From: an uncultured Burkholderiales bacterium
Lineage (GTDB): Bacteria; Pseudomonadota; Gammaproteobacteria; Burkholderiales; Burkholderiaceae_C
DNA: 64,000 bases
Direction of reading: 5' to 3'
NCBI GenBank assembly: GCA_903932865.1
Contig: CAIZHQ010000020.1
Location: 204,468-268,467 of the forward strand
Shown: piece after piece, positions 6,627 through 64,000 of the stretch
Layout of the letters: each line of letters begins with the position of its first letter
Position numbering within the stretch: the first letter of the stretch is position 1
Made by a program: the position numbers and the translations under genes
The notes under the pieces: generated by a model
The model's input: the letters and a program-made list of their open reading frames with translations, nothing else
Told to the model about the DNA's origin: nothing
The model's database searches: none

Positions 6627-6915
6627 TCTGAAAGTCGGAGTGAATCGCCCTGGATTTTTAAGAGGCTAGACACTTTGAGCTGATGGCACCTGAGCAAGAA
6701 TTCACGCCTACCTGCTCCATTGAGCACCCAGTTCCATTGAGCCGGACGGAGCAAGCTTCTCGACCAGCTCAGCCTCCATGAGTTCGAGCGCCAAGGTGAT
6801 ACTGCGCTCCGAAAAGTGTCTACAGGTTTGGGGAAATGCCAGGTTCGCTGGGCTGAATAGCTGGACTCATTTCAAAACAAACGTAGCGTTTTTTTCAAGC
6901 TGAGCACAGCGCTAG

Positions 6916-6935
6916 TTGCCTCTGCGCAGAGGCAA
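6916..6935. repeat. Perfect 20-bp palindrome TTGCCTCTGCGCAGAGGCAA
   Basis: Read directly. Confidence 0.9.
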
Positions 6936-7080
6936 AAAGCAAGGCCGCATTGACACTATGCTGGCGTCACTGATAACAGATTGAATTGGAGTTGTTTGAC
7001 TGTTCCGAAATCTATGAAAAGACTTCGAAAAATCTATGAGAAGTAGTAAACTCGGGCCATACTACTTTTAACATAAGAAA

Positions 7081-7108
7081 AAGCACCTAGAGTTTCCTCT
7101 AAGTGCTT
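7081..7108 (-). terminator. Rho-independent terminator downstream (on the - strand) of the tRNA 3' fragment
   Basis: - strand AAGCACTTAGAGGAAACTCTAGGTGCTT followed by TTTCTT. Confidence 0.7.
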
Positions 7109-7127
7109 GATTTCATTGGGAATTTTT

Positions 7128-7172
7128 TGGTGGGCGATGCAAGTTTCGAACTTGCGACCCCTGCAGTGTGAA
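7128..7172 (-). other. tRNA 3' half (anticodon loop to CCA), tRNA-Val(CAC)-like; attachment-site fragment
   Basis: - strand TTCACAC-TGCAG-GGGTC-GCAAG-TTCGAAA-CTTGC-ATCGCCC-A-CCA; 5' half of tRNA not present. Confidence 0.7.
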
Positions 7173-7384
7173 AACGCCAACATTTCACCCTTTTCCCCTT
7201 TAAAAACAACAACTTAGCTGTTTTCAACAGGGTCAAAGTAGTATACTTGTAGTATGCCCATGTAATTATAAAGTGATATTATACTTTCACTTCTGTGACT
7301 CCGGCTGTAAACCAGTGTCATTTCTTTTTACGGTGCTGTTTTTTAAGCACTTGCAGAACATTCATTGTGGCTCAGAAACGGCTC

Positions 7385-7560
7385 AATGTATATAGAGTTT
7401 TGGTTCGAGCCGGCTCAATGTATATAAAGTTTCAAGCCCCGGACCGGCAATGTGTATGGAGTTTTGGTTGGCACCGGGCAATGTATATAAAGTTTTCGCT
7501 CAAACACACTCAATGTATATGGAGTTTTGGTTGGCACTGGGCAATGTATATAAAGTTTTG
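7385..7560 (+). repeat. Array of six ~32-bp imperfect units (AATGTATATaaAGTTTT / AATGTATATggAGTTTTGGTTGGCAC)
   Basis: Unit starts at 7385, 7416, 7449, 7480, 7512, 7543 (spacing 31-33 bp). Confidence 0.9.
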
Positions 7561-7942
7561 ATGGCGACCATTGAGCACCCTCTTCCTATGAGTTGGGCAC
7601 CGCAAGATGGCGATTGCTTTGTGCGCGCCCGATCCAAAGTCAATATGCGGAATTTGATAACAGTTAAATCGCCTGAACAATTTCACAACTTTGATCAAGT
7701 GTCATTCCTTTTTACGCTGAAACTTTTTCGAGCCACAACTTTTAATCGAACCACAGGTAGAGCCGTCGCTCAATGTGTATAAATTTTTTGTTTGAAGTGC
7801 CCGATTTGCATGAAGTTTGCGATTTGTACTTCGCCCTTCCCAATTAGTCTTGCACACAATGTGCCACTACGCGACGGCGAACTTGTTGTGTATCGCCGCA
7901 GCCGCAGTCTGCTGTATCAATGTCGCTAACGTTTGGCTGACG

Positions 7943-8456
7943 GCAGTTGGGTGAGACAAACAACGGGTATGCGGCACGGCACAGAGGCAATGGGCATTAG
8001 GTGGCGGGACTTGGAGTGGCACACAAAGGATGGTGTGCGGTATCTGCGTGTGTGGGTGGATGGCAAAACGGGCGGACGCTGGCTCATTGCCAAGCACAAG
8101 GCAGTGGATGTCTTGCGTAGGCTACACGCACGACAGAAGGCCATTTGCCAAATGTCGTTTGAAACGACATTTACAGAGCGTGTGCCGCACTTGCTGTTCA
8201 GCTTCAGTGATGGACACCAGCCGCACAGTTTGGTGGGACATTCCGCAGATTGATGCGAGATAGTGGCTTGCTGTTGGATAGTGCGGGACAAACGCGAACC
8301 TTCTATTCGCTGCGACACACCTACGCCACGCTGGCGTTGCTGGAGGGTGGTGCTGACATTCACACATTGAGCAAACACATGGGCAATAGTGCTGCAATGA
8401 TTGAACGGCACTACAGCAAACTCACAGCGACTATGGGGGCAGATAGGTTGGCTTGA
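7943..8456 (+). pseudogene. Frameshifted/truncated tyrosine recombinase (integrase) remnant
   Basis: TTGMRHGTEAMGIRWRDLEWHTKDGVRYLRVWVDGKTGGRWLIAKHKAVDVLRRLHARQ in one frame, then AAQFGGTFRRLMRDSGLLLDSAGQTRTFYSLRHTYATLALLEGGADIHTLSKHMGNSAAMIERHYSKLTA in another. Confidence 0.8.
8150..8172. repeat. Palindrome AAATGTCGTTTgAAACGACATTT
   Basis: 11-bp perfect arms; related copies at 9572-9588 and 9698-9714. Confidence 0.85.
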
Positions 8457-26372: not shown

Positions 26373-27635
26373 ATGAAACTGTCACAAGCCGAAATTCAGG
26401 CTTCAGCCCGCGCCGAAGCCTTTGCCATGCCGATCGAGCAGATCGACCCCGGAACACCAGCTTATTTTGAGAACGACACCGTTGGTCATTATTTCGAACG
26501 CCTTCGACGTGACGACCCTGTCCACCACTGCAACAGCGCTTTGTACGGACCGTATTGGTCGGTGACCCGTTTCCAGGACATCATGCAGGTGGACACCAAC
26601 CACGGCATCTACTCTTCAGACTGGACAAATGGTGGTATTGCCATCACCGAACCACCACCGGGTGAAGCGAAGTTGCAGATGTTCATCGCCATGGACCCTC
26701 CGCGCCATGACGTGCAACGCAAGGCCGTTCAGCCCATCGTAGCGCCGGGCAACCTGGCCAACATGCAGAACCTCATCCGGGAGCGGACCTGCAAAGTTCT
26801 CGACGGCTTGCCTCGTGGCGAGACCTTCAACTGGGTAGAGCATGTGTCTATCGAGCTCACCACTTTGATGCTGGCGACTCTTTTTGATTTTCCGATCGAG
26901 GACCGTCACCTGTTGACGCACTGGTCAGATGTGGCCACCGCCAACAAGGATGTTGACCCCAACGCGCCAACGCGTGAAGAACGCCTGGCTGAATTGCAAA
27001 AGATGGCGGCTTATTTCACCCGCCTGTGGAATGAACGCGTCAACTCAAGTCCAGGATCCGACCTGATTTCCATGATGGCCCACAACCCGGAAACCCGGAA
27101 CATGTCTCCGCAGGAATTCATGGGCAATCTGGTGTTGCTGATCGTGGGTGGTAACGACACCACTCGCAACTCGATGACCGGAGGCCTGCTGGCCCTGCAC
27201 AACAACCCGGCCGAATGGGACAAGCTGCGAAACAATCCAGCCTTGGTGGACAACATGGTCTCGGAAATCATTCGCTGGCAGACACCGCTGGCCCACATGC
27301 GCCGCACAGCCTTGCAAGACACAGAACTGGGCGGCAAACAGATCAAAAAAGGCGACAAGGTGGTGATGTGGTATCTCTCGGGCAACCGCGACGAGGAAGC
27401 CATTCCCAACGCGAGCCAGTTCATCATTGATCGGCCACGTGCACGCCAACACTTGTCTTTTGGCTTTGGCATCCACCGCTGTGTGGGGAACCGCTTGGCA
27501 GAGATGCAACTGCGGATCCTGTGGGAAGAAATTCACAAGCGCTTTCCCGTCATTGAAGTCGTGGCCGACCCGGTGCGAGTGCGTTCGCCCTTTGTGCGTG
27601 GCTTCACCGAACTCATGGTGCGCATACCCACATGA
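26373..27635 (+). CDS. Cytochrome P450, CYP153-like
   Basis: Heme loop LSFGFGIHRCVGNRLAEMQLRILWEEI; MDPPRHDVQRKAVQPIVAPGNL; SIELTTLMLATLFDFPIEDR, all CYP153-like as I recall the family. Confidence 0.85.
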   Translation: MKLSQAEIQASARAEAFAMPIEQIDPGTPAYFENDTVGHYFERLRRDDPVHHCNSALYGPYWSVTRFQDIMQVDTNHGIYSSDWTNGGIAITEPPPGEAKLQMFIAMDPPRHDVQRKAVQPIVAPGNLANMQNLIRERTCKVLDGLPRGETFNWVEHVSIELTTLMLATLFDFPIEDRHLLTHWSDVATANKDVDPNAPTREERLAELQKMAAYFTRLWNERVNSSPGSDLISMMAHNPETRNMSPQEFMGNLVLLIVGGNDTTRNSMTGGLLALHNNPAEWDKLRNNPALVDNMVSEIIRWQTPLAHMRRTALQDTELGGKQIKKGDKVVMWYLSGNRDEEAIPNASQFIIDRPRARQHLSFGFGIHRCVGNRLAEMQLRILWEEIHKRFPVIEVVADPVRVRSPFVRGFTELMVRIPT

Positions 27636-29137
27636 ACGAGGCGCCTGACATGAAGCCGTTGCCCGAGCAATTGGATGTGCTGATCATCGGCGCCGGTATT
27701 TCTGGCGTCGGTGCTGCCTGCCACCTGCAGCAACAGTGCCCGGACAAGCGTTTTGCGTTAGTCGAGGCCCAGGCCAGTTTCGGCGGCACATGGCGGACTC
27801 ACAACTATCCCGGCATTCGCTCCGACAGCGATCTTTTCACCTTTGGCTACCGATTCAAGCCGTGGCGCGGCAACCCGATCGCCAGTGGCGATCAGATCTT
27901 GAACTACATGAACGAGGTCATCGACGAATACGACTTGGCTGCGCGGATCCATTACCGAAACCGTGTGACCTCGGCCCGGTGGTCTTCTGTCGACGCCCGC
28001 TGGCATGTCGAGATCCTGCAAACGCCACAAGAAAGCAAGCCTGTCATCCGCCAAGTGCGTTGTCAGTTTTTATGGATGTGCCAGGGTTACTACAGTCACG
28101 CCGCGGGTTACACGCCGGAATGGTCCGGTATGAATGACTTTGCCGGTCGCATCGTCCACCCGCAACAATGGCCGAGAGACCTCGACCTGACCGGTCAGCG
28201 TGTGGTGGTGATCGGTTCTGGCGCGACCGCCGCAACACTGGTACCTTCCCTGGCGGGCCGCTGTGCGCATGTGACCATGCTCCAGCGATCACCCACTTGG
28301 TTTGCAACTGGGCGCAACGCCAATGAACTGGCCGACACGCTGCGCGCACTGGACATACCGCACGAATGGACCCATGAAATCGTGCGCCGCAAAGTGCTTT
28401 TTGACCAAGCCCACATCCAGCGGCGATGTGTCCAAGAGCCCGAGACTGTGGCGGCTGAACTGCTCGCCGCAGCCAGAGAGGCACTCGGCCCCGAACACGC
28501 ACACTTGGTCGATGTCCATTTCAAGCCGACCTATCGCCCATGGCAACAGCGTTTGGCCTTTGTGCCCGATGGCGACCTTTTCAAAGCGATACGTCATGGG
28601 CAGGCCAGTATTCAAACTGGTTCGATTGAGCGCTTCGTGCCAGAAGGCATTCGCCTGAGCAACGGTGAGACTGTGCCCGCCGATGTGATTGTGACTGCCA
28701 CAGGTTTTAACCTGAACGTATTGGGTGACATTGATTTCCAGATCGATGGCAAGCCGCTGGACTTTGCGAGCAGCGTCACTTGGCGCGGTGCCATGTTCAC
28801 AGGCTTACCCAATTTGTTGTGGGTGTTCGGCTATTTCCGTGCCAGTTGGACGCTGCGCACCGACTTGCTGGGCGACTTTTTCTGCAAGCTTGTGAAGCAC
28901 ATGGACCAACACAAATTGCGCAGTGTGGTTCCAGCGCTTCGACCTGAAGACCAAGACATGACCTTGAGCCCTTGGGTGCGACCCGACAACTTCAATCCCG
29001 GTTACCTGGCTCGGGGCATGCATCAGTTGCCACGCCAAGGTGATCGTGCACCCTGGTTGCACCTGCAAGACTATTCGACCGACAAGAACGATCTTCCAGT
29101 GGCCGCACTCGATGACGGCTCTTTGATTTTTAACTGA
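27632..29137 (+). CDS. Type I Baeyer-Villiger / flavin-containing monooxygenase (EthA-like)
   Basis: GAGISGVGAACHL; YPGIRSDSDLFTFGYRFKPW; BVMO fingerprint FAGRIVHPQQWP (FxGxxxHxxxWP). Confidence 0.85.
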   Translation: MNEAPDMKPLPEQLDVLIIGAGISGVGAACHLQQQCPDKRFALVEAQASFGGTWRTHNYPGIRSDSDLFTFGYRFKPWRGNPIASGDQILNYMNEVIDEYDLAARIHYRNRVTSARWSSVDARWHVEILQTPQESKPVIRQVRCQFLWMCQGYYSHAAGYTPEWSGMNDFAGRIVHPQQWPRDLDLTGQRVVVIGSGATAATLVPSLAGRCAHVTMLQRSPTWFATGRNANELADTLRALDIPHEWTHEIVRRKVLFDQAHIQRRCVQEPETVAAELLAAAREALGPEHAHLVDVHFKPTYRPWQQRLAFVPDGDLFKAIRHGQASIQTGSIERFVPEGIRLSNGETVPADVIVTATGFNLNVLGDIDFQIDGKPLDFASSVTWRGAMFTGLPNLLWVFGYFRASWTLRTDLLGDFFCKLVKHMDQHKLRSVVPALRPEDQDMTLSPWVRPDNFNPGYLARGMHQLPRQGDRAPWLHLQDYSTDKNDLPVAALDDGSLIFN

Positions 29138-29190
29138 GTTTTTCTCAACGCACCTAGAAAATTTTCACCACCACAATCAGGAGACACTTC

Positions 29191-30162
29191 ATGAGAAATG
29201 CATTGACACGCCGCCAGACTCTTCAAGCGTTGGGGGCCAGCTTGCTGCCGATGCCGCTGATTGCAGTAGCGCAAGCCGCTTTTCCAAATAAGCCCGTTCG
29301 AATCATCGTGCCGCTGCCTGCCAGCGGTGCAGCCGACGTGTCGGTGCGGATCTTGACAGAATTCATGCAACAGCCTCTGGGCCAAAGCCTCGTGGTGGAG
29401 AACCGACCCGGTGGAATTTACCAAATCGGCATTCAGGCCATCACCAGCGCTCCAGCGGACGGTTACACCCTGATTCACCTCAATGCAACCATGTGTGCCG
29501 TACAGGCTTCGCTCAAACGCTTTGACATGCTCAAACAACTCATTCCCGTGGGGTTGATGGGCTCAACAGATGCCATGCTTTGCATTGCCAACAATGCGCC
29601 ATTCAAGACTGCACAAGAAATGGTTGCATGGGGCAAGGCCAACCCCGGCAAGCTCAACTATGGCTCCACAGGTCCGGGCTCGATGGAGCATTTGAGCATG
29701 GTCAGCATCATGCAACGTGTCGGCATCACGGGGAACAACATTCCATTCAAAGGCGGTCCAGATGGTGCCTTGGCGCTGGCGCAAGGTGAGATCCAGGCTA
29801 TGGCATTGCCAGCGCCACTGATCATCCAGTTCAGAGACAAAATCAGACCTGTGATTGCCCTGACGGAACAAAGGATTGGCTTCTTGCCTGATTTGCCCAC
29901 CGCCAAAGAGCAGGGGCTGGATATCCCCACGGTGAATTACTGGGGTGGCCTAGCTGTCCCTGTTGGCACCCCAACTGCTGTCGTCGAGACCCTTGAAAAA
30001 GCCATGAGCGTTGCCGTGAATAACCCGGCGCTGTCTCAGCGTTACACCCCATTGGGACTGAATGCACGATTTGCAGGTGGCGCCGCATTCAAAACCATCA
30101 TCGAGCGTGACCTTCAGTGGCTGGGCGATGCGGTCAAGTCGGCCAATTTGCAATTGAGCTGA
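29191..30162 (+). CDS. Bug-family (TTT) substrate-binding protein
   Basis: AAFPNKPVRIIVPLPASGAADVSVRIL...ENRPGGIYQIGIQAITSAPADGYTLIH. Confidence 0.9.
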   Translation: MRNALTRRQTLQALGASLLPMPLIAVAQAAFPNKPVRIIVPLPASGAADVSVRILTEFMQQPLGQSLVVENRPGGIYQIGIQAITSAPADGYTLIHLNATMCAVQASLKRFDMLKQLIPVGLMGSTDAMLCIANNAPFKTAQEMVAWGKANPGKLNYGSTGPGSMEHLSMVSIMQRVGITGNNIPFKGGPDGALALAQGEIQAMALPAPLIIQFRDKIRPVIALTEQRIGFLPDLPTAKEQGLDIPTVNYWGGLAVPVGTPTAVVETLEKAMSVAVNNPALSQRYTPLGLNARFAGGAAFKTIIERDLQWLGDAVKSANLQLS

Positions 30163-32277: not shown

Positions 32278-33252
32278 TCACACCGCCGACAACGCCCATG
32301 TTGGATTGAGCTGCGCAGTTGACGAACTGACCGATTGCCAACGCGCTTGTTGCGCCTCCAAGAGTGACATATGGTCCAGGTGGCCATATCTCCGAAGCAA
32401 CATGGTCTGATCCCGATGCCCGAGAATTTGCGAGGCAACCCCAACACCCACGCCATTCCTCAACAGCGATGCAGCGACCCAATGCCGGATGTCATGCACT
32501 CGCAGATCTGGACGACGCAACATGCCCGTCACGCTGCTCCACTTCTTTCGATAGCAAATGGGCGTGATGCCGTTCTTGCCCGCAAAGATCAATCGATCCC
32601 CAGAACCCGCAGTCAATGCAGGCTTCAAACGTTTGGCCAATGCCATAGTTTCGGGCGTAAAAAACAGTGTTCGCGAATCCCCGTTCTTGGTTCTGGGTAC
32701 GATGAGTTTTCCGCCTCCGATATCAAGCTCTTGCCATGACCTTTGAAGCAGCTCACTCTTGCGTGCGCCAGAGTCCACCAGCATCCAAACGAACAGCGTG
32801 AACAAGCGGTCTCTGCCCATTTTTGCGGCCAGGCGCAAGGACAAAATATCCTGCTCTGACGATGCCACGTAACGAATTTTTTCCTCGAAGCGCTTGACGG
32901 CAAGTGTGGGTGAAGTGAATCCTCTTGGAGCCATCCGACGACTCACAACAGCCCATCTATAGACTTGTCCCAGTGCACCGATGTCGCGGTTGACCGTGGA
33001 AGTTGCGTAACCAACTTCGACCAATGCCTCGGCTGCTTTTTGCAGTCGTTCACTGGAAATGGACCATGCCGATTCGTGACCGAAACCATTGACTGGGTCG
33101 CACCACTTTCTGAGCCGCAGCTCCAGTTCAAGACGGGGTTTTGCAAGCGAATGCGCTTGGACCAGTTCAGCCAACGTGACGTCAACGGGAACAAAAGATG
33201 AAGCCGCATCCGCTGCAGCTTTGAGATCGATGGGGTGTTTGAATTTGCGCAT
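32278..33252 (-). CDS. Tyrosine recombinase / site-specific integrase (island 1)
   Basis: Catalytic set present: GARKSELL (R), VPRTKNGD (K), HDIRH (HxxR), LGHRD (H), LLRRYGHLD (Y); lies immediately inside the right direct repeat. Confidence 0.9.
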   Translation of the reverse strand: MRKFKHPIDLKAAADAASSFVPVDVTLAELVQAHSLAKPRLELELRLRKWCDPVNGFGHESAWSISSERLQKAAEALVEVGYATSTVNRDIGALGQVYRWAVVSRRMAPRGFTSPTLAVKRFEEKIRYVASSEQDILSLRLAAKMGRDRLFTLFVWMLVDSGARKSELLQRSWQELDIGGGKLIVPRTKNGDSRTLFFTPETMALAKRLKPALTAGSGDRLIFAGKNGITPICYRKKWSSVTGMLRRPDLRVHDIRHWVAASLLRNGVGVGVASQILGHRDQTMLLRRYGHLDHMSLLEAQQARWQSVSSSTAQLNPTWALSAV

Positions 33253-33342: not shown

Positions 33343-33387
33343 TGGTGGGCGATGCAGGGTTTGAACCTGCGACCCCTGCAGTGTGAA
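33343..33387 (-). other. tRNA 3' half, tRNA-Val(CAC)-like attachment-site fragment (second copy)
   Basis: - strand TTCACAC-TGCAG-GGGTC-GCAGG-TTCAAAC-CCTGC-ATCGCCC-A-CCA. Confidence 0.7.
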
Positions 33388-33600
33388 AACGCCAACATTT
33401 CACCTTTTTCCCATTTAAAAACAACAACTTAGCTGTTTTTGACTGGATCAAAGTAGTATACTTGTAGTATACCCATGTAATTACAAAGTGATATTTAAAT
33501 TTCACTTATTTGACGCTGACTGTAATCCAGTGTCATTTCTTTTTACGGTGCTGTTTTTTTAAGCACATCTCACAGTGTCATTGTGGCCCAAGAACGGGTC

Positions 33601-33743
33601 AATGTATATAGAGTTTTAGTTCCGAATGGCCAAAGTGTATGAAGTTTTAGTTCGCACTGGCTAATGTATATAAAGTTTTCGCTCAAACACACTCAATGTA
33701 TATGGAGTTTTGGTTGGCACTGGCCAATGTATATAAAGTTTTG
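33601..33743 (+). repeat. Array of five ~32-bp units (second copy of the 7385-7560 array)
   Basis: Unit starts near 33601, 33632, 33663, 33695, 33726. Confidence 0.85.
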
Positions 33744-34398
33744 ATGGCGACGATTGAGCACCCTCTTCCTATGAGTTGGGCGCCGCAGGATGGGGATTGA
33801 TTTGTGCGCGCTCGATCCAACGTCAATGTACAGAATTTGATGTCAGTTAAATCGTCGGAACAATTCCATAGCTGTGATCAAGTGTCATTTTTTTACGCTG
33901 AGAAATTTTCGAGCCACAACTTTCAAGCGAGTCACACGTAGAGCCGTCGATCAATATATATAAATTTTTTGTTTGAAGTGCCCGATGTGCATGAAGTTTG
34001 TGATTTGTACTTCGACCTACCCCCTTCGCTTTGCTGACGATTAGCGGCAGGGAGCTCATAAATTTCACCTGCGTCGATGACTCACCAGGTTATTTTTTAT
34101 AACTGCAATGCAGCGATTGCCGCCGGTCGTGTCCTACAGTCATTTCGGGGCTTTCTGCCAAAAGCAGTCACTCAAACTCAGTCGTCACTGTTTCCTCCGC
34201 TGACCGCTTTCAGGTGACCAACTGACAGTTGCAAAGCTCTGGATCGCTTTAAGGTGATGACGGTCCGCTATATTGAAATTAATCACCGATTGGCAAATAG
34301 ACGAGCTTTTTTTAGTACCACTAATGAAAAATTATCCGCCACCTAAGTTCAGCAGTGGTCATAGATTTTCATGAGTAATTCAGCACAAGAAAAAATTT

Positions 34399-59715: not shown

Positions 59716-59797
59716 TACCAGCCCTACATCCAGGTTGACGATGAGTTTTTCAGAAACTATCATGCAGCATGAATGCATGAACTTTAAGGAAAGCGCA

Positions 59798-60058
59798 ATG
59801 TCTTACCCCGCAACTGACAGCAAGATGGTCAAATCCATCGGCGCAAGTGGCCAAATCTCTTTGGGCAAAGAGTTCGCGGGAAGACAAGTCCTGATTGAGT
59901 CGCCAGCTAAAGGTGTGTGGATCATTCGGACTGCCACCATAACTCCCGATCATGAGCCTTGGCCTGAAGAAGAAAAGGCTCAAACTGGACTCAAAAAAGG
60001 CCGTACCGGCAAGACACCATCACACGATCAAACGTCACGAAAAAAATCTCAGGCCTGA
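59798..60058 (+). CDS. Small AbrB/antitoxin-like hypothetical protein
   Basis: MVKSIGASGQISLGKEFAGRQVLIESPAKGVWIIRTATITPDHEPW resembles a SpoVT/AbrB-like fold; immediately upstream of fic. Confidence 0.5.
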   Translation: MSYPATDSKMVKSIGASGQISLGKEFAGRQVLIESPAKGVWIIRTATITPDHEPWPEEEKAQTGLKKGRTGKTPSHDQTSRKKSQA

Positions 60059-60110
60059 GGGCATCCGAGGTTTTCACAGAAATGACATTTGTCCATGGAG
60101 CAAGATAAAA

Positions 60111-60896
60111 ATGATTGACCTGTTTGCCGCTTTAGGCTTTAGCTGGAACTGCGAAAAGATTCCTCAGCAGATTCCTACCCACTCGATTGATCGAGTAACT
60201 TTTCATTTCCATCGAATGCTGACTACGTATGTTTGGGACGCATCAGTGCTTGAAGGCAATCCCTTTACGTTTCCAGAAGTGAAAACTTTGCTTGAAGGTG
60301 TGACGGTCGGTGGCCGGAAAATTTCCGATCAAGAGCAAGTACTGAACTTGGCCGAAAGCTCCAAATACCTGCTGTCACTGGTCAAAGCTGGAAAGTTCGA
60401 GCTGGACAAAATCACATTCACCCAGCTACATGGACTGGTAGCAAAAAATGAAGCGCTGGAATGGGGACATTTTCGTGGAGAAGGTCTAGAGACTAACTAC
60501 ACACCCGACGTTGGCCTAGGTCCTGAAGGTCGCTACACACCACTACCCACCGTGCCCGGAGCCCCGGAGCTCAACCGTGTTTTTTCCGAAGGCCTGCAAG
60601 CGTTAACCAATAAAGTCGAAAGTCCATTTGAAAGAGCTGGTGCATTTTTTCTGTTCGGAGCCTTGCAGCAGTTCTTTTTTGACGGCAACAAACGCACATC
60701 ACGCTTCATGATGAATGGAATTTTGATGTCCTCCGGTATGGATGCCATCAGCATTCCAGCGGCAAAGGCGCAAGACTTTAACGAAAAAATGGTCCGTTTC
60801 TACTTGACTAAAGACGCCACTGAAATGATGGAATTTTTAGTTAGCTGTCATCCAGATGCCATCACCATTCAACAAAACAATCCGCAAGTGGATTGA
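60111..60896 (+). CDS. Fic-domain protein with degenerate catalytic motif (Q in place of H)
   Basis: ALQQFFFDGNKRTSRFMMNGILM corresponds to HxFxDGN(G/K)RxxR; N-terminal ASVLEGNPFTFPEV resembles the inhibitory (S/T)xxxE(G/N) segment. Confidence 0.8.
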   Translation: MIDLFAALGFSWNCEKIPQQIPTHSIDRVTFHFHRMLTTYVWDASVLEGNPFTFPEVKTLLEGVTVGGRKISDQEQVLNLAESSKYLLSLVKAGKFELDKITFTQLHGLVAKNEALEWGHFRGEGLETNYTPDVGLGPEGRYTPLPTVPGAPELNRVFSEGLQALTNKVESPFERAGAFFLFGALQQFFFDGNKRTSRFMMNGILMSSGMDAISIPAAKAQDFNEKMVRFYLTKDATEMMEFLVSCHPDAITIQQNNPQVD

Positions 60897-60901
60897 TTGC
60901 T

Positions 60902-61984
60902 TTAAATTGAAATGCGATTTAAGACTTCTAGCTTTTGTTCAAGCGTATAGCCTACTGTGCCGTAGTTATTGAACTCAGAGCCACCACTGGAGTGGCCTGT
61001 GATACTTTCTGCCAAACGCGTGGGAATGTCGTTACAGGCCTTCATCCTGTCGATCAGGGCATGACGGAACATGTGACTTCTGAAGTCTAGGTCGGCCAGG
61101 TATTTGTTCATGATGGCCGAGCAGCTGTTGCTGCCATGGTAGTGCGCATACTGCGGCACCAGCCATTCACTGCCTTCGCACTTGGCCATCTCCACCAGTC
61201 GCTTGGCCGCAAACAGCGACACCCCTACCAACGGTACGGCACGAATACTGCTCTTGTTCTTTCGATTGGAGAGTGCATTTTTGCGGATCCAAATGTGCGG
61301 AATCGGGTGATCAAAAACACAATCCTCAACACGGGCGTACACAGGTTCAGACAGTCGCAAGCCAGTATTCATCTGGATCAGCCCAATGAGCTTGTAGGGC
61401 TTGAACCGCGTCATCAACTTTTGTTTGACTGCCAGCAACAAGTCATGGGTAATGACAGGCATTGGCCTGCGCTCATCTTCACCGGAAATTTTCAGAGCTC
61501 GGAATGGGCTCAATCTGTCGATGTCCAGACATCTGAATGCAACATTGAGCATGGCGTTCAAGATCGCCGTTTGCTTGCGGACTGTCACAGGCTTCAAACC
61601 CAAACTCAGCAAATGGTCGCGAAAAATGCAGGCATGCGCATAACGTAGATCACAGAGGTACAAATCACCCACCAAGGACGAGAAGCGCCTGAAAACATGC
61701 AAGACATCGCCCTTGAATTTACGGCCATCACCTGCATCACTTTCATGGAGATAAATCGCCACGGCATCCGAAATTTTGGGTTCGGCATGCATTTCTTTGC
61801 GGATGAAATAGTTGCCAATGAGCTCTGCAACAAACGACTCATCAAAGTCAACACCCCTTACCCTAACCAACCGCCGCAAGACGGCTTCAGGAGTTGATTT
61901 AACAATCTCAAAGTGGCCGTCACTCATGCTCAAAATGGTCAATTTGCATACAACAAATTTACTGTCAAAGACGCAGATGGACAA
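60902..61984 (-). CDS. Tyrosine recombinase / site-specific integrase
   Basis: MNTGLRLSEPV (R), SHMFRHAL (HxxR), ITGHSSG (H), FNNYGT (Y); start may be downstream (MSDGHFEIVK). Confidence 0.85.
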   Translation of the reverse strand: MSICVFDSKFVVCKLTILSMSDGHFEIVKSTPEAVLRRLVRVRGVDFDESFVAELIGNYFIRKEMHAEPKISDAVAIYLHESDAGDGRKFKGDVLHVFRRFSSLVGDLYLCDLRYAHACIFRDHLLSLGLKPVTVRKQTAILNAMLNVAFRCLDIDRLSPFRALKISGEDERRPMPVITHDLLLAVKQKLMTRFKPYKLIGLIQMNTGLRLSEPVYARVEDCVFDHPIPHIWIRKNALSNRKNKSSIRAVPLVGVSLFAAKRLVEMAKCEGSEWLVPQYAHYHGSNSCSAIMNKYLADLDFRSHMFRHALIDRMKACNDIPTRLAESITGHSSGGSEFNNYGTVGYTLEQKLEVLNRISI

Positions 61985-62293
61985 CCGGATTTAGACGAAT
62001 TTTCAGGTCGATCTAGACAGAAAACCCACGAAATTTTCTACCCAAACTAAGCGCTACAACACCTCTCCTGCAGGCCTTGGATCCGTGTCGATACCGGAAT
62101 CCAAATCAGCCGTGTAGCGCTTGTTTTATGCGTTGCAAGATGCCCGATTTATTGAATACCCAATAGAGCCAACAGACTTTGCCCGTGGGTATGCAGAAAC
62201 CATTTTTGCTATGCCTTTCATCCCCATGACCAAAGATTTTAAAAACAGCCATATTCGGGGCCAAAACCCCGCGTTTTCGGGTCTTTCGACGGT

Positions 62294-62689
62294 TTATCGT
62301 GGCATGTTGGCCTGGCCTGGCCCTATCGATTGTTGCTGCAACCCATAGGCATCGGCCTGGCTGAAGCTGCTTGAATGTGTGGGCCTGAGTACTGGCTGTG
62401 AGCTGGGCAGTGGTGGGGGCCTGTTGGGGGTCACTACCCTCGCCTGCTGGGGTACCGGACTTTTGGGTGGGAGTGGTTTCGGGGCTGGTGGTTTTGGCTT
62501 GGGGGCTGGTGGCTTTTTCGGAACAATCTTTTTAGGCTTGATCCTTTTAGGCTTGGGGGTGGCAGCAATTTGCGCCTTGAGCCTGGCCTGCTCCTTGGCC
62601 TGAGCTATCACGGCAGACCAAACGTTGTCTGATATCAATCGCCAAAGAGCAAGTTGATCGTCCGCACTGGCTATTTCGTTAAATCGCAT
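62294..62689 (-). CDS. Pro/Lys-rich hypothetical protein
   Basis: MRFNEIASADDQLALWRLISDNVWSAVIAQA followed by PKPKRIKPKKIVPKKPPAPKPKPPAPKPLPP. Confidence 0.6.
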   Translation of the reverse strand: MRFNEIASADDQLALWRLISDNVWSAVIAQAKEQARLKAQIAATPKPKRIKPKKIVPKKPPAPKPKPPAPKPLPPKSPVPQQARVVTPNRPPPLPSSQPVLRPTHSSSFSQADAYGLQQQSIGPGQANMPR

Positions 62690-62725
62690 AGTTGCTCTCC
62701 TTTCTCTATATTTATTTAGCAAAAA

Positions 62726-62739
62726 GACGAGATCTCGTC
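62726..62739. promoter_or_regulatory. Perfect 14-bp palindrome GACGAGATCTCGTC in a divergent intergenic region
   Basis: Lies between divergent starts 62689 (-) and 62772 (+); operator role is inference. Confidence 0.4.
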
Positions 62740-62771
62740 CCCTCAATTTCGATCTGCTCATAAATAAAAAT

Positions 62772-62993
62772 ATGCGGATCAACGAACTCATCAAACCTAA
62801 GTCTCCAGAGCAATTGAAGCTGGACCAACTTCGCGCCACGAGGGAACGCGCCACCACAGCAGTTCAACAGGAACGTGAACGTCAAAAGACACAGCGGGCC
62901 CAAAAAGCCCTGCACTTGTTGACAAAGCCTAAAGCCCCATCAGCCAAAACAACCAAACCCATTGGCACCATCAAGCCAATCAAATCAATCTAG
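62772..62993 (+). CDS. Small hypothetical protein
   Basis: MRINELIKPKSPEQLKLDQLRATRERATTAVQQERERQKTQ, charged, likely helical. Confidence 0.5.
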   Translation: MRINELIKPKSPEQLKLDQLRATRERATTAVQQERERQKTQRAQKALHLLTKPKAPSAKTTKPIGTIKPIKSI

Positions 62994-63069
62994 CCAAAAG
63001 AAAACCGACACTGGAATGCATTTCAGTGTCGGCCATGGCCGATAAGCAATGATTGTTTGAATCGCGGCT

Positions 63070-63564
63070 TTAAGTAGCAGGCTTAACGGGCAGCTTCAAT
63101 TTCCCTTTTTTCACCACGCCCTCCTCTTTGCCGAATGCGGCCTTGACCAACCCACTTACCGCTTCAATGCGTGCGTCTAACTCCCCGGCATCTACAGCGG
63201 CACGCAGTACCTCAAGCGTAGTGATGACGCCTGCAATGTTGTCGGTCTCAATGGCGTTTTTGCCTTCGATCACATCCAGCGTGCGTGCGCCATAGCGGAC
63301 TGTGATGCACATCTTTCCGTTATCTCCAGACCACCACCATGGTTTCAACCGCTTGGGAATTTCTACTCGTCGCATTTCGCCGGTGGCGTCGTCCCGGACT
63401 GTGCGAATCTTCACCGGTACAAACTCGGTACCTGACTGAACGGCTTTGGCCATTTGAATCTGCTCATGCAGCTTGGCGCTGAGCTTTTGCCGTCTGGCAT
63501 GCGCTGGGCTTGTGCCCTGCTGACGCTTGCTGGCGATGAATTTCAATGCATTGAGACCTGACAT
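63070..63564 (-). CDS. DUF6641-like hypothetical protein
   Basis: MSGLNALKFIASKRQQGTSPAHARRQKLSAKLHEQIQMAKA...RLKPWWWSGDNGKMCITVRYGARTLDVIEGKNAIE; family name from memory. Confidence 0.55.
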   Translation of the reverse strand: MSGLNALKFIASKRQQGTSPAHARRQKLSAKLHEQIQMAKAVQSGTEFVPVKIRTVRDDATGEMRRVEIPKRLKPWWWSGDNGKMCITVRYGARTLDVIEGKNAIETDNIAGVITTLEVLRAAVDAGELDARIEAVSGLVKAAFGKEEGVVKKGKLKLPVKPAT

Positions 63565-63680
63565 TTGCTACTCCTTGTGTGTTGCAGGAATAACAAATTT
63601 ATTGTCAGACCGTGGCTCTGGGCAACCGAATCATTGGTAACCCGACAGTCTGGAAGGACACCACTCGCAGCTTCAACCAA

Positions 63681-64000
63681 TCAAGATGTTGGAAAAACCG
63701 ATTTGTACCCTTTGGCCAAAGCTTCCTCTTGCTCGATTCTTTTCTTGTGCTCGCTTTCCTCTGCAGCAGCGTTCAAGGAACGCGGTTTGTAACGCTCCAG
63801 CTGCTTAGGGGTCAAATGCCAATAAGGATTACCCGTTTGCTCGCGCATCTGCATTTCAATCTCGGTCTTGAAATCCACGCCCAACCGCCGCTTGAAGAAA
63901 ATGGCGTCGTGAACATTGGCAATCGGTCTGTGACCTTTTGTGAGTGCTGTGCGTCTGACGATGTCCATGACCTGCGTCTCGCCGTGCTGATACAGGTAAG
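63681..64000 (-). CDS. C-terminal part of an unidentified protein, truncated by window edge
   Basis: Open to the right edge: YQHGETQVMDIVRRTALTKGHRPIANVHDAIFFKRRLGVDFKTEIEMQMREQTGNPYWHL; VHDA resembles polymerase motif C (weak). Confidence 0.45.
   Translation of the reverse strand, partial: YLYQHGETQVMDIVRRTALTKGHRPIANVHDAIFFKRRLGVDFKTEIEMQMREQTGNPYWHLTPKQLERYKPRSLNAAAEESEHKKRIEQEEALAKGYKSVFPTS

Follow-up and report, generated by a model that had tools for sequence, protein, structure and literature searches.

A three-turn-phased repeat array in the attachment arm of tRNA-Val(CAC) islands of Limnohabitans, probably a docking array for a protein controlling island movement or expression

What role does a row of evenly spaced, directly repeated sites play at the ends of genomic islands in a freshwater bacterium? 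The question is raised by a window of 64,000 nucleotides from an uncultured Burkholderiales bacterium of the genus Limnohabitans (GenBank assembly GCA_903932865.1, contig CAIZHQ010000020.1, positions 204,468 to 268,467), the whole of which was analysed together with Limnohabitans genomes. Two arrays of an 18-bp direct repeat, the B unit (CAATGTRTATRRAGTTTT), advance through the window in steps of 31-32 bp, and both lie within an end repeat of approximately 700 bp whose first 44 bp belong to the 3' end of tRNA-Val(CAC). Each is probably a docking array for a putative protein that controls movement or expression of the island, and most likely a putative binding array of an island accessory protein.

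A preliminary description had read here a helically phased array inside an attachment-site repeat, and was partly supported: the location stands and the excisionase or accessory-array reading may hold, while the suggestions that the array serves IHF, the adjacent integrase or iteron-type replication gained no support. The unit positions were accurate to a base; counted from the AATG of each unit, copy 1 has starts at 7385, 7417 (previously given as 7416), 7449, 7480, 7512 and 7543 and copy 2 at 33601, 33632, 33663, 33695 and 33726, with spacings of 32, 32, 31, 32 and 31 bp and of 31, 31, 32 and 31 bp, respectively. The motif said to bracket each array, AGTGTCATT(T/C)CTTTTTACG(G/C)TG, is likewise present at 7314 and 7698 (384 bp apart) and at 33529 and 33881 (352 bp apart), the difference of 32 bp amounting to one extra unit in copy 1. 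Unguided tandem-repeat analysis (TRF) recovered both arrays independently, copy 1 at 7375-7560 with a period of 32 (score 145) and also of 63 (score 217), and copy 2 at 33600-33742 with a period of 31 (score 144). Units 3 and 5 of copy 1 are identical at 30 of 32 positions, linker counted in; the 63-bp signal reflects a two-unit duplication, which is the origin of the extra units of copy 1. The further phased pair reported beyond each array exists as well but is weaker, its members scoring 15.3-26.1 bits on a matrix that gives the array units 22-31 bits. Coordinates are collected in Table 1.

Table 1. Features of the island ends and recombinase genes in the window (positions are those of the 64,000-nucleotide stretch).
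Feature	Position	Strand	Remarks
Left flank, copy of the sequence after the native tRNA-Val gene	6842..7128	.	homology to C10 flank
att core copy 1	7129..7172	-	same sequence as 3' end of intact tRNA-Val(CAC), G000:C10 (L028 9502-9576)
GTAGTATA direct repeat copy 1	7238..7255	+	65 bp from core
A box copy 1 (AGTGTCATTTCTTTTTACGGTGC)	7314..7336	+	142 bp from core; 95% mean pairwise identity across copies
B array copy 1	7384..7559	+	six 18-bp units: 7384, 7416, 7448, 7479, 7511, 7542
Second A box copy 1	7698..7720	+	75% mean identity
Outlying B pair copy 1	7771..7819	+	units 7771, 7802; 26.1 and 15.3 bits
Broken-frame remnant of another tyrosine integrase, downstream of array copy 1	7813..8453	+	frame reading
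intA, XerC-like tyrosine recombinase, tRNA-proximal island end	32278..33252	-	PF00589 2.8e-18; start ~91 bp from core 33344
att core copy 2, T-arm variant	33344..33387	-	4 differences vs copy 1
GTAGTATA direct repeat copy 2	33453..33470	+	
A box copy 2	33529..33551	+	
B array copy 2	33600..33742	+	five units: 33600, 33631, 33662, 33694, 33725
Second A box copy 2	33881..33900	+	sequence reads AGTGTCATTTTTTTACGCTG
Outlying B pair copy 2	33952..34000	+	units 33952, 33983; 21.2 and 19.2 bits
intC, second tyrosine recombinase	60902..61984	-	PF00589 9.5e-10
p187 and DUF6641 genes, conserved with intC	62294..63564	-	91-97% identical in L023 and L074

The attachment-site setting proposed earlier is borne out by the cores at 7129 and 33344, which are direct repeats of the tRNA 3' end at island borders. 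One complete island of 26 kb (7129-33344) lies in the window and has intA at the right; a second island begins there and runs off the contig. The intact tRNA-Val(CAC) of this genome lies on a different contig (C10; the window is on C20), and positions 6842-7172 are 95% identical over 331 bp to its flank (L028 9217-9546). Several array-bearing relatives have this 331-bp sequence, too, to the left of their cores; past it the genomes differ. Homologues of intA, starting about 92 bp from the core, adjoin the intact tRNA-Val in six other genomes, which fixes the identities of the two ends: intA marks the tRNA-proximal end, and core, arm and array the tRNA-distal end. The closed genome G275 has the same architecture, with arms at 2,019,115 and 2,033,617 and the intact tRNA-Val at approximately 2,058,720; both there and in G001 the intact gene is accompanied by further cores in tandem. 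Cargo in the window is metabolic and includes TctC receptors, acyl-CoA and sulfatase genes, a P450, Rieske oxygenases and a TRAP transporter. The attachment cores differ from one another by paired changes in the T-arm (window copies; L023, L082, L087), and in G041 the core variant of copy 2 forms the 3' end of the intact tRNA-Val beside a 96% identical intA. From such comparisons, integration seems to leave the tRNA gene with the island's own version of the 3' end.

Several other loci show how these island ends are arranged. At L087 (4552-7168) three cores lie within 2.6 kb and bound elements of approximately 0.6 and 2.0 kb, the second containing an array and a fragment of intA; these short elements look like non-autonomous mini-islands. 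At L027 (6213-18444, genome G001) two cores and the intact tRNA-Val bound cargo segments of 4 and 8 kb, and only an N-terminal fragment of intA was found there. One attachment arm (L190, G043:C23 70045-71760) appears to be split by an insert of approximately 1.6 kb with a few arm bases repeated at the junction, which suggests an insertion sequence. A tRNA-Pro(GGG) gene occurs on an array-bearing contig in two genomes (L071 14490-14566; L023 12462-12538, outside the island end in L023). Cargo of the first island (27512-30055) is 90% identical to a stretch of G024 (L039 12457-15000) that follows tRNA-Val at a distance of 4.8 kb, and its order with respect to the tRNA is the same in both.

The geometry of the array is maintained across copies. 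Among 18 non-identical copies carrying one to six units each, 63 units are separated by 45 spacings of 31 bp (19), 32 bp (25) or 33 bp (1), with a mean of 31.6 bp, and the helical period that fits the unit positions best is 10.56 bp. Each end in the array lineage is laid out as core, GTAGTATA repeat (+65), A box (+142) and first B unit (+211; 210-212 bp from the core end across copies), the last usually followed by three further B units, with expansion or loss in some copies. In support of the preliminary description, homologous islands carry the array at the same distance from the core, unit number differs between islands and strains, and spacing remains helical, at 31-33 bp, despite divergence of the linkers. 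In multiple alignment, identity reaches 0.94 for the core, 0.93 for the GTAGTATA repeat, 0.95 for the A box and 0.96 for unit 1, and the DNA between conserved blocks drifts to 0.59-0.89 (0.82, 0.71 and 0.59 for the stretches between). Over 16 copies the first units have diverged by 0.063 versus 0.485 for the linkers behind them, a pattern that looks selected, although these copies are related by descent and the divergence figures are non-independent, so that selection is supported rather than proven. Some units may owe their similarity to gene conversion and recent tandem duplication, and it counts against the protein-binding reading favoured below that the outlying pair and the single B sites of older arms stand off helical register with the core. 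Three islands (L134, L074, L025) pass into unrelated cargo within or just beyond unit 1, 15-37 bp from where that unit starts, which looks as though the retained end terminates at this point. The array is thus a real, spacing-constrained multi-site element.

The B unit is also specific to its location. With up to two mismatches allowed, a search of 61 Limnohabitans genomes gave 33 matches to the unit pattern, of which 31 lie at these island ends, versus none for a reversed control pattern in the same genomes; the array is therefore not due to chance, nor is it the general genomic repeat that would have undermined the earlier proposal, and it was located only at these island ends. A matrix scan of 282 kb of other Limnohabitans DNA gave, besides one arm, two stray matches of 15-16 bits and none of at least 20 bits. 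The 679-bp arm with its array was matched in 15 of 91 Limnohabitans genomes, 13 of the 15 having true B units, and in none of approximately 197 genomes from the family's other genera. Named records with pattern matches are assemblies of Limnohabitans and other Comamonadaceae, with none from outside the Comamonadaceae; no similar DNA was found in plasmids, nor was the double-unit pattern found in viral contigs.

The GTAGTATA repeat defines arms in 22 genomes and stands 64-65 bp from the core in nearly all arms that keep one. Four loci (L233, L238, L242, L244) retain core and repeat and have no strong B site, and in three older arms B-like sites occur singly or in pairs, oriented like the array units (L222 at +288 and +826; the third core of L087 at +239; L223 at +227, weak, and +329). 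The B site thus appears older than the array, which looks like an amplification within one arm lineage. The array is dispensable for the wider island family, since related members that possess the core and the GTAGTATA repeat hold at most one B site, and B sites are not needed for integration within it.

The explanation favoured here, with about even confidence, is that protein binds the array at multiple sites, within the attachment arm that marks the tRNA-distal end of tRNA-Val(CAC)-targeted Limnohabitans islands. One DNA-binding protein would occupy the units cooperatively on a single helix face, and the resulting nucleoprotein complex would act on the neighboring core. Its most likely effect would be on when, or in which direction, the island excises and integrates, while intA would provide the catalytic activity. 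Candidates for this protein include an island-encoded factor, among them products of the intC gene block, or a host factor. Two of the binders named in the preliminary description, the integrase and IHF, fare poorly. Alignment of the 32278-33252 integrase with phage integrases begins only at position 162 of the 611-position profile (PHROG_1, at residue 23 of intA), its Pfam domains are the core-binding and catalytic ones only, and no N-terminal arm-binding domain is evident from Pfam or the PHROG_1 alignment; because intA aligns over these parts alone, a classical arm-type reading with intA as the binder is unlikely. An AlphaFold model of intA from the single sequence was unusable (pLDDT 36). 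As for IHF, no unit matches WATCAANNNNTTR, the array units contain no perfect match to the IHF consensus, and one-mismatch sites do not recur with the units. No RDF gene was recognised and no Xis gene was found. It is conceivable, though rather doubtful, that these islands embody a system whose catalytic integrase lacks an arm-binding domain and leaves the arm to be read by another protein with its own gene, possibly intC or its neighbors, through an expandable three-turn-phased array, unit number then tuning the behavior of the island.

The main alternative to this complex is transcriptional control of intA on the excised circle. More broadly, a repressor or activator may bind the units as part of a transcription control region, upstream of intA on the circle or between tandem islands or, read in the opposite direction, ahead of the cargo genes that come first. 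This reading is possible if unlikely. On the circle the core, arm and array precede intA, which reads away from the core, whereas the integrated proximal intA is preceded by tRNA-Val instead, and the array could thus report the excised state; furthermore, the array of L025 is closely followed by the start of a small DUF2080-like gene. The array contains no sigma-70-like site, however, and the wider region no more of these than shuffled sequences do. Cargo following the array also varies between islands, and neither the 61 Limnohabitans genomes nor the 282-kb matrix scan revealed a B-site regulon elsewhere.

More doubtful still is the proposal that the units are an arm-type site set of intC, or a target of p187, DUF6641 or a 530-aa protein, cooperating or competing with intA at a shared attachment site. 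An intC of at least 95% identity is present in 8 of 13 array-bearing genomes and in none of 78 others (hypergeometric p 1.5e-8, relatedness ignored), and this restriction to array-bearing genomes makes intC or its neighbors candidate binders. Approximately 80 N-terminal residues of intC lie outside its phage-integrase match, and in four genomes (G000, G018, G055, G044) the gene is found on the array's contig, on the cargo side and in the same relative orientation. Yet five array-bearing genomes have no close intC, its distance from the array ranges from 5 to 27 kb, in G070 it lies on the opposite side of the core, and the association could stem from shared strain ancestry. The gene sits in a conserved block (59735-64000; also L074 3036-7406, and L023) comprising a DUF2080-like gene, a Fic protein, intC, p187, DUF6641 and the 530-aa protein, for which no Pfam, PHROG, plasmid or phage match was obtained; a phage- or plasmid-like origin of the block is possible. 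An assignment of intC to the tRNA-proximal end was dropped, its distances to both ends being variable.

It is improbable that the array is a neutral tandem repeat that slippage or unequal recombination left behind in an outer part of the island end lacking any function. The near-identical units 3 and 5 of copy 1, as two-unit duplicates, are consistent with such an origin, as are the range of one to six units and the absence of the array from many arms, but the linkers are 49% diverged versus 6% for the first units with lengths held at 31-33 bp, and a neutral repeat would not keep 18 of every 32 bases. An iteron-type replication origin of the excised circle is very improbable: the direct repeats are phased and one exact DnaA-box match is found at 7774, but this box overlaps a B unit and is missing from copy 2, no initiator domain was detected among approximately 50 window ORFs tested (island 2 runs off the contig, and the conserved 530-aa protein has no assignment), and plasmids offered no similar DNA. 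Hardly credible at all is an IS21-, Tn7- or Tn5053-like transposon end in which the A and B boxes form several transposase sites, as the directly repeated, non-palindromic sites of approximately 18 bp and the A box start TGTCATTT, which resembles such ends and serves as a lead only, might suggest, for 20 IS21-type loci of the genus (1.5 kb flanks on each side) have no B sites and no convincing A boxes, the opposite island end has no inverted copy, and the core-to-A distance is fixed, unlike random insertion. Also rejected were a coding sequence (no conserved protein in the array frames, and stops that differ between copies), the A box as a genomic repeat (close matches fell at island ends or, in those checked, in unrelated DNA) and a host regulon (the 61 genomes gave two isolated matches to the pattern, about as many as estimated for chance). 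Rfam gave 0 matches in 6000-36000.

Transporters and genes for aromatic and acyl-CoA catabolism belong to the metabolic cargo that the islands move between abundant freshwater bacteria, and some of the segments moved are apparently without an intact integrase of their own. As a conserved, countable feature in a fixed place, the array gives a sharp marker for finding such islands, and it would offer a direct handle on control of a two-domain integrase.

In the literature searched, no account was found of a phased array in an island end, nor anything relevant on Limnohabitans islands. Several known systems share parts of the arrangement. The ends of Tn7, Mu and IS21 similarly present a row of long, non-palindromic direct sites; the Limnohabitans ends differ in having no cognate transposase, no opposite end and a position fixed to the tRNA core. 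Lambda-type attP regions, with their arm, IHF and Xis sites, resemble these arms in combining a core with ordered accessory sites at fixed distances, and the Limnohabitans arms do hold repeated sites at a fixed core distance (the GTAGTATA repeat at +65, B units from +211), but with no IHF match in the units, no evident arm-binding domain in intA and no Xis gene found. The attP of ICEMlSymR7A contains five P/arm-type IntS sites within 283 bp as well as RdfS-binding DNA, and an accessory factor coordinates the integrase and direction (PMC11963761). Several repeated non-core sites in the attachment region are common to both; those of ICEMlSymR7A are 10-bp integrase sites, whereas the Limnohabitans units are 18 bp long with three-turn spacing, intA seems to be without an arm-binding domain and no RDF was found. 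Tycheposons and related tRNA-bounded flexible islands have been described in Prochlorococcus and freshwater Methylophilaceae (PMC10872708). Shared with these are a border tRNA, repeats of the tRNA 3' end, a XerC/D-like recombinase, mainly metabolic cargo and planktonic hosts, including freshwater betaproteobacteria; the Limnohabitans islands have tRNA 3'-end direct repeats at their borders and a tyrosine recombinase beside the attachment site. Unlike tycheposons, they target tRNA-Val(CAC). By architecture alone, the Limnohabitans islands would belong with the tycheposons and other tRNA-bounded islands.
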